Of a stretch of DNA of 64,000 nt, positions 15,824-41,370 are shown piece after piece. Origin of the DNA: Candidatus Planktophila dulcis (GTDB lineage Bacteria; Actinomycetota; Actinomycetes; Nanopelagicales; Nanopelagicaceae); contig NZ_CP016777.1 in the NCBI RefSeq assembly GCF_002288225.1, forward strand, positions 372,001-436,000, written 5' to 3'. Made by a program: the position numbers and the translations under genes. The stretch's first letter is position 1. Each line of letters begins with the position of its first letter. The notes under the pieces were generated by a model. The model was not told the DNA's origin. It made no database searches and saw only the letters and a program-made list of their open reading frames with translations.

Positions 15824-16475
15824 TCAGATCATTTTGTGGCGCCACGGACAGACCGAATGGAATGTTGCCAATAAGTTTCAAGGCCACACAGATATTCCAC
15901 TCAATGAGGTGGGAAAGTTTCAAGCATCCCATGCAGCGCCCATGATCGCTGCAATGGATCCCACAATGATTATTGCAAGTGATTTGGTTCGAGCGCAGAG
16001 CACAGCCCATGAGTTAGTCAAGCTCACAGGACTTGAAGTACTTACCGACCCACGCCTTCGCGAGACAAATTGCGGAAACTGGGAAGGCTTAACCGGTGAT
16101 GAGATTCGAAAAGTAGATCTAGCTAACTTACGTGAATGGTCGATGGGTGGAGATAACCCAGCTGGCACAGTGGGTGAAAGACGTAGCGAAGTTGGAGCAC
16201 GTGGAGTTGCAGCGATTACGGAAGCACTCGCAGGTAAAGAGAATCAGCGACTTGTCGTTGCAACACATGGTGGAACATCTCGAACAATTATTGGTTCTTT
16301 TCTTGATTTGCCGATTCCATACTGGTCTCGCGTTGGTGGGTTATCAAATGCGCAATGGTCGATTCTTGAAGAGTCGCCTAAAGGTTGGTTATTGGTCGAA
16401 CATAACGCCGGATCTATTCCAGAGCCTGTCTATGGCGAAGAATCCGGCGCAGTGATACCTGATTCAGTACGGTAA
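15816..16475 (+). CDS. Histidine phosphatase family protein (phosphoglycerate-mutase-like)
   Basis: 219 residues from the GTG at 15816, giving MGNQIILWRHGQTEWN. The RHG motif holds the phospho-accepting histidine, and the second histidine is in VVATHGGTSR. Broad family of phosphatases and mutases. In actinobacteria a member following rsfS is conserved; its substrate is not established by sequence. The frame continues upstream inside rsfS, but this GTG places the RHG motif at the usual distance from the N-terminus. Confidence 0.88.
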   Translation: MGNQIILWRHGQTEWNVANKFQGHTDIPLNEVGKFQASHAAPMIAAMDPTMIIASDLVRAQSTAHELVKLTGLEVLTDPRLRETNCGNWEGLTGDEIRKVDLANLREWSMGGDNPAGTVGERRSEVGARGVAAITEALAGKENQRLVVATHGGTSRTIIGSFLDLPIPYWSRVGGLSNAQWSILEESPKGWLLVEHNAGSIPEPVYGEESGAVIPDSVR

Positions 16476-16493
16476 AGTTCGCTTTTTAACAGC

Positions 16494-16566
16494 GGGGATA
16501 TGGCGCAATTGGTAGCGCGCTTCCATGGCATGGAAGAGGTTAGGGGTTCGATTCCCCTTATCTCCA
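16494..16566 (+). tRNA. tRNA-Ala (anticodon GGC)
   Basis: Cloverleaf folds fully: acceptor GGGGATA with TATCTCC, D-stem GCGC, anticodon stem CTTCC/GGAAG with loop ATGGCAT (anticodon GGC), T-arm AGGGG TTCGATT CCCCT, discriminator A. CCA is not encoded. The leuS start codon begins 2 bases after the discriminator. Confidence 0.95.
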
Positions 16567-16567
16567 C

Positions 16568-19039
16568 GTGAGTACAGAACGCGAACACGCGGCATACGAT
16601 TTTGCATACGTGCAAGAGAAGTGGCTGCCGATTTGGGATGCGCTCGAGCCATTTAAATCTGGTCGAGCCGATGATGTGCGCCCGAAGAAGTATGTACTCG
16701 ATATGTTCCCTTATCCATCAGGTGATCTACATATGGGCCATGCCGAGGCATATGCACTCGGGGATGTAATTGCTCGTTACTGGATTCAAAAAGGTTTCAA
16801 CGTCATGCACCCGATCGGTTGGGATGCATTTGGATTACCTGCAGAAAATGCTGCAATCAAGCGCAATGAAGATCCACGTATTTGGACCTATGAAAACATA
16901 GCAACGCAGAAAGCTTCGATGCGACGCTATGCATGTTCATTCGACTGGGATCGCGTCTTTAACACATGCGATCCTGAGTACTACAAGTGGAACCAATGGC
17001 TCTTTACCAAACTTCATGACCGTGGCTTGGCATATCGCAAGGACTCTGCAGTTAACTGGTGCCCAGGGTGTCAGACAGTATTGGCTAATGAACAAGTAGT
17101 AGCTGGACTCTGTGAACGATGTGACACAGCTGTCACCAAGAAGAAGCTCAACCAGTGGTATTTCAAGATTACTGATTACGCAGATCGCTTACTCGATGAC
17201 ATGTCAGAGCTAGAAGGCAAGTGGCCTGAAAAAGTCTTGCTCATGCAGCGCAACTGGATTGGTCGCTCACAAGGTGCCAACGTTAACTTTGTCATCGAAG
17301 GTCGCACAGAACCTGTCACAATTTACACAACTCGCCCCGATACTTTATACGGTGCAACATTTATGGTTGTTGCAGCTGACTCAGCACTGGCTGCTGAACT
17401 TGCAGCTGGCACACCCGTTGAAGCTGAATTCAAATCATATTTAGAGAAGATTAAGGCTGCATCAGATATCGATCGCCTTGCAACAGATCGCCCGAAATCT
17501 GGCGTTGATTTGCAGCGCTTTGCAATCAATCCAGTTAATGGCGAAAAGCTTCCTATCTGGGCATCTGATTATGTACTCGCAGATTATGGAACAGGTGCCA
17601 TCATGGCTGTTCCGGCTCACGATCAGCGCGACCTTGATTTTGCAAAGGCGATGGGACTTTCTGTTCGCGTAGTTGTTGAAACAGGCGAGGAAGATCCCAA
17701 TGAAACCGGTATTGCCACAACTGGTGATGGAAAGCTTGTTAACTCTGGATCTCTTAACGGTTTAACAAAGAGTGATGCGATTGCCGCAATTAATAAGCAG
17801 CTTGAAGCAGATGGACTTGGAAAGTCAGCTCGTAACTATCGCTTGCGCGATTGGCTTGTATCTCGCCAGCGTTATTGGGGCACGCCTATCCCAATCGTTC
17901 ACTGCGACAAGTGCGGTGAGGTAGCTGTTCCAGATTCAGAACTTCCATTGTTGTTACCTGATGCAAAGGGCTTAGATCTCAAGCCAAAGGGACAATCACC
18001 ACTTGCTGCAGCAACTGAGTGGGTTAATACCAAGTGCCCTAAGTGTGCAGGCCCTGCCATGCGCGATACCGACACGATGGATACCTTCGTTGACTCATCT
18101 TGGTACTACTTGCGTTACCCATCATCGACGAATTCGACTGAACCATTTAATCGCGCAGAGATTGATACATGGCTACCCGTTGATCAATATGTGGGTGGCG
18201 TTACCCACGCAATTCTGCACTTGCTCTACTCGCGCTTCTTCACCAAAGTCTTATATGACATGAAGATGCTCTCATTTACTGAGCCTTTCACGCGTCTTCT
18301 CAACCAAGGAATGGTTGTCATGGATGGCTCTGCGATGTCTAAATCTCGTGGCAACCTCGTGCGCCTATCTGATGAACTTGAAAACCACGGCGTTGATGCA
18401 ATTCGTTTATCTATGGTCTTCTCAGGTCCGCCTGAAGATGATGTGGATTGGTCAGATGTTTCACCATCAGGCTCTGTGAAGTTCCTGAGTCGTGCATGGC
18501 GTCTATCAGGTGATGTCACATCAGCACCTGGTGTTGATTTCGGTAAGGGCGAGCTTTCACTTCGCAAGGCAACACATAAAGCACTTCATGATGCAGGTTT
18601 TGCCGTTGAATCTTTTAGATTTAACGTAGCCATTGCTCGTGTGATGGAGCTTGTGAATGCAACACGTAAGGCAATTGATTCAGGTTGTGGCGCGGCAGAT
18701 CCTGCAGTGCGTGAGGCAACGGAAGCAACCGCAATTATGTTATCCCTTGTTGCACCATTTACAGCAGAGGAAATGTGGGAGCGCTTAGGCCATAAGCCCG
18801 CTATCGCACTTGCTGGCTGGCCCGCAGTAGATCCAGCCCTGCTTGTGGATGACGAAGTAGAGGCTGTTATTCAGATTAACGGCAAGATTGTTGGACGCAT
18901 CAATGTCTCACCAACGATTTCAGATGCTGATTTTGAAGCAGCCGCCCTAGCTCTTCCTGCGATTGTCGCAGAGCTCAAGGGCGCAACGCCTAAGAAGGTT
19001 ATTGCTCGCGCTCCAAAGCTTGTCAACATCGTTCTGTAA
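16568..19039 (+). CDS. leuS: Leucyl-tRNA synthetase
   Basis: 823 residues. HIGH-type motif [13 protein letters not shown] near residue 56, a CP1 editing domain with [13 protein letters not shown] and the region around [31 protein letters not shown], and the KMSKS-type [10 protein letters not shown] loop, then an anticodon-binding domain. A zinc-type CDKCGEV/CPKC pair is present. The GTG at 16568 is the only start that fits the family N-terminus ([15 protein letters not shown]), yet it lies one base after the tRNA-Ala discriminator, so there is no room for a ribosome binding site outside the tRNA. Confidence 0.97.
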
Positions 19040-23195: not shown

Positions 23196-25076
23196 GTGCC
23201 TGCAATATCCATTGCTAAGGCGCCACAACCAGCATCGACAAATCCGGCGCAGATTCGCAATTTCTGCATCATCGCCCATATCGATCACGGCAAATCAACT
23301 CTTGCCGATCGCATGCTCCAAATTACTGAAGTTGTAGAGGCACGCAATATGCGCGCGCAGTATCTAGACCGCATGGATATTGAACGCGAACGCGGAATCA
23401 CTATTAAGTCTCAGGCAGTTCGCCTTCCTTGGCGCAGCGGCCTTGATAACCAGGAATACATCCTGAACATGATCGACACACCAGGTCACGTTGACTTCAC
23501 CTATGAAGTATCACGATCACTTGCTGCCTGTGAAGGCGCGGTTCTCCTTGTTGATTGCGCACAAGGTATTGAAGCCCAAACTCTTGCTAACCTCTATCTT
23601 GCGATGGAGAACAACCTCACCATCATTCCTGTTCTGAACAAGATTGATCTTCCAAATGCACAACCTGAGAAGTTTGCTGCAGAACTTGCAGGGCTCATTG
23701 GCTGCAAAGTTGAAGATGTCTTGCGCGTTTCAGGTAAGACGGGCGATGGCGTTGCTGACCTTCTTGATCAAATCATTGCGCAGATTCCAGCACCTACCGG
23801 AGATGCCGATGCACCAGCACGCGCTCTCATCTTTGACTCTGTCTATGATTCTTATCGAGGCGTTGTTACTTACGTGCGCGTGATCGATGGTCATATCAAT
23901 CCACGTGAGCAGATTCAGATGTATTCAACGGGTGTAAAGCATGAAGCACTTGAAGTTGGCGTTATTAGCCCTGAACCACTGCCATCAAAGGGTCTTGGTG
24001 TGGGCGAAGTGGGTTACTTGATTACTGGTGTGAAAGATGTGCGCCAATCACGTGTGGGTGACACGATCACAAACTTTGCACGTCCAACAAAGCAGCCTCT
24101 GGGTGGATATAAAGATCCCAAGCCAATGGTCTTCTCAGGTCTATTCCCACTCGATGGCGCAGATTTTCCTGTCTTGCGTGATGCACTTGAGAAGCTGCAA
24201 CTTAACGATGCAGCTCTCGTCTATGAACCAGAGAGCTCTGCAGCGCTCGGCTTTGGTTTCCGCTGCGGTTTCCTCGGTCTTCTTCACATGGAGATTGTGC
24301 GTGAGCGCCTTGAGCGCGAAGCAAAGCTGAACTTGATTTCAACTGCCCCTAACGTGGTCTATCGCGTGACAATGGAAGATGGCAAAGAATTTATCGTGAC
24401 TAACCCGTCAGAATTTCCAGATGGCAAGATCAATAATGTGAAAGAGCCAATCGTGAAGTCAACGATTCTTGCTCCTTCAGAATTTATTGGAGTCATCATG
24501 GAGCTCTGCCAAGATCGCCGCGGCATCATGCTCGGTATGGATTACATCTCTGAAGATCGCGTTGAAATCCGTTACACCTTGCCTCTTGCTGAAATCGTCT
24601 TCGACTTCTTTGATCAACTCAAAAGCCGCACACGAGGCTATGCATCCCTTGATTATGAAGAGATCGGCGATGAAGAAGGCAATCTCGTTAAGGTTGATAT
24701 TCTCTTGCAAGGTGAAGCAGTCGATGCATTTAGCGCAGTAGTACACCGCGATAAGGCATATTCCTATGGCGTGATGATGACTGGCAAGCTGCGCGAGCTC
24801 ATTCCTCGTCAACAGTTCGAAGTTCCTATTCAGGCAGCTATTGGCTCTCGCATTATTGCCCGTGAATCTATTCGCGCTATCCGTAAGGATGTTCTTGCTA
24901 AGTGTTATGGCGGCGATATCTCTCGTAAGCGCAAACTTCTCGAGAAGCAGAAGGAAGGTAAGAAGCGCATGAAGATGGTGGGACGTGTTGAAGTTCCACA
25001 GGAAGCCTTCGTTGCAGCCCTTGCTACCGATGCCGATATCGAAAAGATTAAAGCAGCCCGCAAGCTCGAAGGCTAA
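23196..25076 (+). CDS. lepA: Elongation factor 4 (LepA)
   Basis: 626 residues with a GTG start. Ribosome-associated GTPase. G1 is [14 protein letters not shown]3 DTPGHVDF and G4 NKIDLP; the LepA-specific C-terminal end is seen in [19 protein letters not shown]. Followed after 6 bases by hemW, an arrangement common across bacteria. Confidence 0.97.
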
Positions 25077-41296: not shown

Positions 41297-41370
41297 GTCC
41301 GTGTAGCTCAGTGGATAGAGCGACTCTCTAACGCAGGGTTGGGTCGTGGGTTCGAATCCCACCACGGGCA
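41297..41370 (+). tRNA. tRNA with Arg-like body and anticodon AAC (identity uncertain)
   Basis: Acceptor GTCCGTG with CACGGGC (one G-U), D-arm GCTC AGTGGATA GAGC, anticodon stem ACTCT/AGGGT with loop CTAACGC, T-arm GTGGG TTCGAAT CCCAC, discriminator A. The fold reads anticodon AAC, formally Val, but the D-loop with A20 and the overall body look like tRNA-Arg, whose expected anticodon would be e.g. ACG. A six-base variable loop is also unusual. Followed directly by a strong terminator, so it is expressed as a single gene. Confidence 0.7.

Follow-up and report, generated by a model that had tools for sequence, protein, structure and literature searches.

In animal mitochondria, tRNA excision sets the 5' ends of mRNAs, an arrangement termed tRNA punctuation. 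The 5' ends of bacterial mRNAs are ascribed mostly to promoters, and otherwise to decay or to cuts by toxins. Bacteria can carry a tRNA and an mRNA on one transcript (e.g. tRNA–tufB of E. coli); we know of no bacterial tRNA–mRNA operon in which the start codon is placed exactly at the tRNA end. Eight tRNAs of C. glutamicum are reported to be co-transcribed with protein genes (PMC3890552). In the tRNA-Val/sRNA8 precursor of N. equitans, sRNA8 receives its 5' end when the tRNA is processed at its 3' end, a reaction attributed to RNase Z (PMC3491384), and in mycobacteria an RTG at the 5' end of an mRNA is described as both necessary and sufficient for a leaderless start (PMC4633059). No bacterial leaderless mRNA made by tRNA 3' processing was found in the literature covered, which comprised listed titles and the openings of abstracts, together with passages from PMC3848588, PMC4681348, PMC4633059, PMC3491384, PMC10673834, PMC3890552 and PMC3774663, with most subscription journals outside its range.

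The locus described here lies in a stretch of 64,000 nucleotides from Candidatus Planktophila dulcis, a member of the Nanopelagicaceae; we call this stretch ‘the window’. Its features are:

Ends at 16475, + strand: histidine-phosphatase-like frame, the upstream neighbour (named by look)
16494..16566, + strand: tRNA-Ala(GGC) (Rfam tRNA model, 67.7 bits; ARAGORN; G3–U70 and discriminator A73 read from the sequence)
16567, + strand: encoded C74 of tRNA-Ala; the predicted cut lies 3' of it, between C74 and GTG
16568..19039, + strand: leuS, leucyl-tRNA synthetase, GTG start, predicted leaderless mRNA (ORF of 823 aa; TIGR00396)

As read from the window, the junction runs ...TATCTCCA, then a single C, then GTGAGTACAGAA. 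The tRNA has a well-formed cloverleaf, its GGC anticodon and G3–U70 pair are those of tRNA-Ala, and the genome's 40 tRNA hits include no second GGC alanine tRNA. The synthetase scores 942 bits against TIGR00396 (cut-off 548.4), residue 10 falling on profile position 1 in the best stretch, and its N-terminus is 95–98% identical to those of the nearest titled relatives, actinobacterium IMCC25003 and Candidatus Planktophila isolates. The in-frame stop upstream of leuS, at 16541, is inside the tRNA, and the first ATG, GTG or TTG after it is the GTG at 16568. The original prediction placed this GTG against a discriminator at 16566, which direct reading, Rfam, ARAGORN and the ORF all confirm. It also held that no other start fits, and this stands: there is no candidate upstream in frame, and the next one downstream, a GTG (V15), would delete the AYDFAY block that the genus shows and so truncate the conserved N-terminus.

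We consider it probable that this is tRNA punctuation in a bacterium, in which 3' processing of tRNA-Ala would make a leaderless leuS mRNA, and that it is a general device for making 5' ends rather than one specific to synthetases. The tRNA and leuS would be co-transcribed from the promoter of the tRNA, and an endonuclease would cut the precursor just 3' of the encoded C74, as CCA tRNA ends mapped in other actinomycetes suggest. The CCA-adding enzyme would then supply C75 and A76 to the tRNA. The released 3' piece would be the leuS mRNA, with GUG as first codon at its very 5' end, and actinobacterial ribosomes would initiate on it in leaderless fashion, an ability that others have demonstrated for mycobacteria.

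The first element of this scheme is C74 itself. It is encoded in 38 of the 40 tRNA hits in the window's genome, and CCA in 13 of them. The corresponding figures are 38 and 12 of 39 in a complete relative (G015), and 30 and 8 of 30 among the best-scoring tRNA hits of five genomes from five other families. In the actinomycete tRNA genes counted, then, C74 is encoded and C75–A76 mostly are not. The C74 rule is broken in the genome by two odd tRNA-like hits, at 41297–41370 of the window and at 449935–450008 of G000. The former is a tRNA-Val(AAC)-like gene of unusual anticodon with a G after the discriminator (no C74), followed, by eye, by a hairpin and a T-rich tail; it is possibly a decayed or acquired tRNA.

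The second element is the cut. The published 5'-end map of P. acnes has part of the CCA tRNAs cut inside the triplet, between the Cs in every example given, and others a few bases downstream (PMC3848588). In S. coelicolor, the cut falls between the Cs in most of 12 CCA tRNAs, and cuts in tRNAs without CCA are put only ‘within a few nucleotides downstream’ (PMC4681348). Given the C74 encoded here, a cut between C74 and C75 as in other actinomycetes would release a piece that begins exactly at GUG, with 0 bases before the start; the published cuts at this position concern CCA tRNAs and other genera, which we count against punctuation.

The third is the promoter of the tRNA, for which there is a candidate:

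16473..16478, + strand: TAAAGT, probable –10 box of the tRNA-Ala (hence tRNA–leuS) promoter; overlaps the stop codon of the phosphatase gene

From this box, transcription would start near 16485. Of 70 distinct loci, 58 have a TA[AG][AG]nT motif no more than 60 bases upstream of tRNA-Ala and 63 no more than 100 bases upstream; in 21 of the 70 the motif falls, as in the window, on the stop codon that closes an upstream frame of at least 60 codons. In five loci (L003, L031, L032, L035 and L036) the box lies 62–91 bases before tRNA-Ala, compared with 15 in the window, with hairpin-like sequence between. A generic sigma-70 and terminator scan detected no promoter at tRNA-Ala/leuS. The minimum-energy fold of the unprocessed precursor stretch differs from the cloverleaf, a result that we count against punctuation and that is uninformative.

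Relatives carry the same synthetase gene both with and without the junction, and so offer a comparison. We call the spacing ‘offset 1’ when C74 is followed directly by the start codon (C then GTG), and ‘offset 3’ when C and two bases precede an ATG, leaving a two-base leader after C74. From 110 oriented leuS loci, 104 were classed; the six dropped ones, in which the match started too near the end of the locus, include two joined at offset 3 (L060 and, by eye, L023). Removal of eight duplicates left 96 distinct loci: 11 at offset 1, 18 at offset 3, 10 at offsets 21–93, and 57 with the tRNA farther away or absent from the stretch. The start codon is thus at, or a few bases from, the tRNA end in 29 of 96. 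The junction recurs in relatives; 18 of the 29 are at offset 3, and their two-base leader past C74 is counted against punctuation.

This comparison bears on a simpler explanation, that leuS has a promoter of its own inside the tRNA gene and makes an ordinary leaderless mRNA, the tRNA junction being incidental. Such promoters are the rule in unjoined leuS genes with a genus-like N-terminus: TAnnnT was found by script in 20 of 23, always at spacer 6, and L025 and L057 have it, by eye, six bases before a second ATG, which brings the total to 22 of 23. In the window's own genes, too, spacer 6 is the commonest, with 11 of 118 candidate starts against 0–5 for any other spacer. L067, unjoined and genus-like, has an SD-like stretch, and among all unjoined leuS genes TAnnnT or an SD-like stretch is present in 50 of 67. 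Joined genes lack these signals. Neither TAnnnT at spacers 5–8 nor an SD-like 4-mer occurs in any of the 29 distinct joined leuS loci, TAnnnT is absent at spacers 3–11 from all 32 joined leuS loci (the window's included), and neither signal, TAnnnT again being sought at spacers 5–8, occurs at any of the 45 verified junctions of the family survey described below. In the window, the site in question is:

16554..16562, + strand: where the –10 box of a leaderless promoter (spacer 5–8) would have to lie; T-arm and acceptor strand of the tRNA, no TAnnnT

At the would-be box, pairing within the tRNA dictates the bases. A promoter of a form other than TAnnnT may be envisaged as a variant, and we judge an internal leuS promoter, overall, quite unlikely.

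Punctuation as the source of the leuS mRNA was proposed in the original prediction, with 1–2 bases before the start codon. Comparison favours the proposal, in that joined genes lack box and SD, nearly all unjoined genus-like ones possess one or the other, and the same junction is found elsewhere; the leader is likely to be 0 bases rather than 1–2. On a quick leuS tree, six or more switches between the joined and unjoined states are required, and four for offset 1; three of these four are forced by well-supported branches. Changes may also run the other way. L005 and L036 have a spacer before leuS, with TAGAAT six bases from the ATG, in a clade (support 99) in which all the rest, nine members, have the offset-1 junction; to judge from these sequences, they may represent a return to a promoter.

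How far the junction extends beyond leuS was surveyed in 61 genomes from 17 genera of the family (0.9–2.2 Mb as listed, incomplete ones included). The search pattern comprised T-arm, acceptor strand, C74 and RTG, with RTG starts at offsets 1–3. It matched 152, 55 and 60 times at offsets 1, 2 and 3, and a reversed-pattern control 24, 13 and 8 times. We fetched 60 of the 152 at offset 1, picked for variety before their frames were viewed, and 40 of the 55 and 40 of the 60 at offsets 2 and 3, taken in even steps. ARAGORN verified tRNAs in 50, 13 and 20 of these, and among verified tRNAs a frame of at least 60 codons opens from the RTG in 45 of 50 at offset 1, compared with 2 of 13 and 3 of 20 at offsets 2 and 3, respectively. 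Two of the three offset-3 frames are leuS or SDR genes behind tRNA-Ala(GGC). The other five verified offset-1 cases comprise two short frames behind tRNA-Ile (38 and 41 codons), two that run off the contig and one with an immediate stop; ten offset-1 matches without a tRNA yielded one frame of at least 60 codons. Fisher's test for 45/50 against 5/33 gives 3e-12; since the rows of the survey share ancestry, the number of different tRNA–gene pairs is the safer measure. By position, eleven such pairs in the family have domain support, one member of each having been scanned:

Leu(CAA) – ANTAR regulator: offset-1 pair, domain scan
Arg(TCT) – RNase T-like exonuclease (oligoribonuclease by look): offset-1 pair, domain scan
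Pro(GGG) – CDP-alcohol phosphatidyltransferase: offset-1 pair, domain scan
Ala(GGC) – SDR: offset-1 pair, domain scan
Leu(CAG) – GDPD: offset-1 pair, domain scan
Ala(TGC) – cyclophilin: offset-1 pair, domain scan
Leu(GAG) – phosphoribosyltransferase: offset-1 pair, domain scan
Asn(GTT) – ACT domain: offset-1 pair, domain scan
Met(CAT) – homocysteine S-methyltransferase: offset-1 pair, domain scan
Ala(GGC) – leuS: offset-1 pair, TIGR00396
Lys(TTT) – drug/metabolite-type transporter: offset-1 pair, match under curated cut-off

Long frames likewise lie behind Arg(TCG) and behind one tRNA to which no anticodon was assigned. Two short frames, of 41 and 38 codons (L322 and L332), start at the GTG that follows C74 of tRNA-Ile(GAT); the 38 aa product has no Pfam match, and both are reminiscent of the DLW-39 family.

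The search was also widened to the class. Across 118 genomes, including those of the family, the pattern matched 300 times against 63 for the reversed control, and most of the strings printed were, by eye, not tRNA ends. Twenty tRNA-like matches picked by hand included 15 tRNAs, 10 of which open at least 60 codons. Seven look like genuine genes: GlmU behind Gln(TTG) in three cases, a Nif3-like gene behind Val(TAC) in three, and a transporter-like gene behind Ser(TGA) in one. Domain scans covered one GlmU copy, which fell under the curated cut-off, its stretch being cut, and one Nif3 copy. That only 7 of the 15 tRNA cases are convincing as genes is counted against punctuation.

The tRNA-Ala/leuS junction is more than chance: it recurs in relatives, and there is a strong preference for the exact offset over starts one or two bases farther on. 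The same preference weighs against plain compaction, according to which genome streamlining presses genes onto tRNAs, the offset has no relevance to the mRNA end, and translation proceeds, for example, on the unprocessed transcript. Small genomes in the family suit this explanation, as do offsets of 3, 4 or 7 at some junctions. Closeness alone would not favour offset 1 over offsets 2 and 3 as observed, and joined genes have no SD, in contrast to genes slightly farther from their tRNA, as described next. Compaction as the whole explanation seems to us unlikely.

Genes at a short distance from a tRNA are best seen in relatives in which leuS is unjoined and tRNA-Ala lies 130–1300 bases upstream of it. 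There, the first long frame behind the tRNA is SDR-like, with a domain match confirmed on one junction copy. Of 32 such loci, two lack a frame, leaving 30 (two duplicates included), of which ten are at offset 1, six at offset 4, one each at offsets 3 and 7, and twelve at offsets 22–48. An SD-like stretch precedes 7 of the 12 genes at 22–48 bases versus 0 of the 18 nearer ones. The six loci at offset 4 are counted against punctuation. With an SDR gene at the tRNA-Ala junction in unjoined relatives, leuS appears to have taken over the junction of another gene. And because unjoined genus-like leuS has a leaderless promoter of its own, with the SDR gene behind the tRNA in many, leuS seems, from these arrangements, to have exchanged a 5' end set by a promoter for one set by a tRNA upon loss of the SDR gene.

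The ANTAR response regulator (PF00072 and PF03861), which a search at E 1e-60 found in 28 of 37 genomes of the genus, behaves similarly. At 22 of these 28 loci it follows tRNA-Leu(CAA) with offset 1 despite variable length of its N-terminus, and in the remaining six it lies 17–55 bases away, four having, by eye, an SD-like stretch. Outside the genus, two copies that lack a tRNA in front have TAGGCT six bases before the GTG. In L227, an ATG directly after C74 opens a seven-codon frame that ends in TGA shortly before, and in frame with, the GTG of the regulator; this is a broken junction or an assembly error.

As for the nuclease, RNase Z (TIGR02651) over cut-off was found in none of 8 genomes of the genus and none of 61 of the family, even though most tRNA genes lack CCA in the two genomes counted; we count this against punctuation. 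Absence of RNase Z from the family is likely on this sequence evidence rather than proven, since the model passes in only 9 of 14 control genomes and is under cut-off in five. The weak TIGR02651 hits listed are mostly frames of ComEC size (about 720–810 aa) or RNase J size (about 560–600 aa), named by size and place, and a few are frames of 238–526 aa. PF12706 has three hits in the window's genome, including one in a frame about as long as RNase J (565 aa) and one in a 452 aa frame at 23424, and L199, from another family, has a 257 aa MBL protein, UlaG-like by eye.

Were the tRNA matured instead by a distant cut and 3'–5' trimming, the start of the leuS mRNA would be lost. The two products would then compete, processing would destroy the message, and leuS would be expressed from uncut transcripts only, a negative link. 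The failure to find RNase Z over cut-off is in keeping with such a route. Against it, the genome's single tRNA-Ala(GGC) has to be made, an uncut transcript offers no SD for leuS, and P. acnes, which is reported to have no obvious RNase Z homologue, still cuts tRNA 3' ends endonucleolytically (PMC3848588). We regard competition as very unlikely.

Punctuation, then, is the reading we prefer, and its scope appears broader than one synthetase. The original prediction suggested that synthetase expression is coupled to tRNA processing, and as a form of regulation this is unsupported: the tRNA is alanine's, the enzyme leucine's, and unrelated genes are arranged likewise, so that we set synthetase-specific feedback aside. 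Unrelated genes of the family with the same junction point instead to a general 5'-end device for compact genomes. On balance, we lean towards a wider proposition. In the Nanopelagicaceae, and more thinly in other Actinomycetes, maturation just 3' of an encoded C74 by a nuclease other than RNase Z would give roughly a dozen genes mRNAs that are exactly leaderless, and the junction would act as a heritable ‘socket’ that different genes (SDR, leuS) fit base-exactly, in place of their own leaderless promoters. If so, tRNA genes serve as promoter and processing signal for housekeeping mRNAs, and some mRNAs are born with a 5' monophosphate yet translated. The keeping of C74, but seldom of C75–A76, in the actinomycete tRNA genes examined would be explained, and a tRNA 3' endonuclease other than RNase Z would be indicated. 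The mitochondrial mode of punctuation would also have a counterpart in free-living bacteria.

The comparison with animal mitochondria is the closest. Both would have mRNA 5' ends set by tRNAs, as proposed here, starts at or a few bases from the tRNA, and leaderless translation. Unlike in mitochondria, the genes here are single chromosomal genes of a free-living bacterium, the encoded C74 is kept, no RNase Z over cut-off is found, and tRNA-Ala keeps a promoter-like box of its own. With the promoter-made leaderless mRNAs of Mycobacterium, Propionibacterium, Streptomyces and Corynebacterium, the leuS message would share RTG at the 5' end and lack of an SD; it would differ in owing its 5' end to cleavage of an RNA rather than to a promoter six bases upstream. 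Bacterial tRNA–mRNA operons (E. coli tRNA–tufB, C. glutamicum) resemble it in having tRNA and mRNA on one transcript. In N. equitans tRNA-Val/sRNA8, finally, the 5' end of the downstream RNA comes from tRNA 3' processing, as we propose for leuS, but there the product is an archaeal C/D box sRNA, and here it would be an mRNA.
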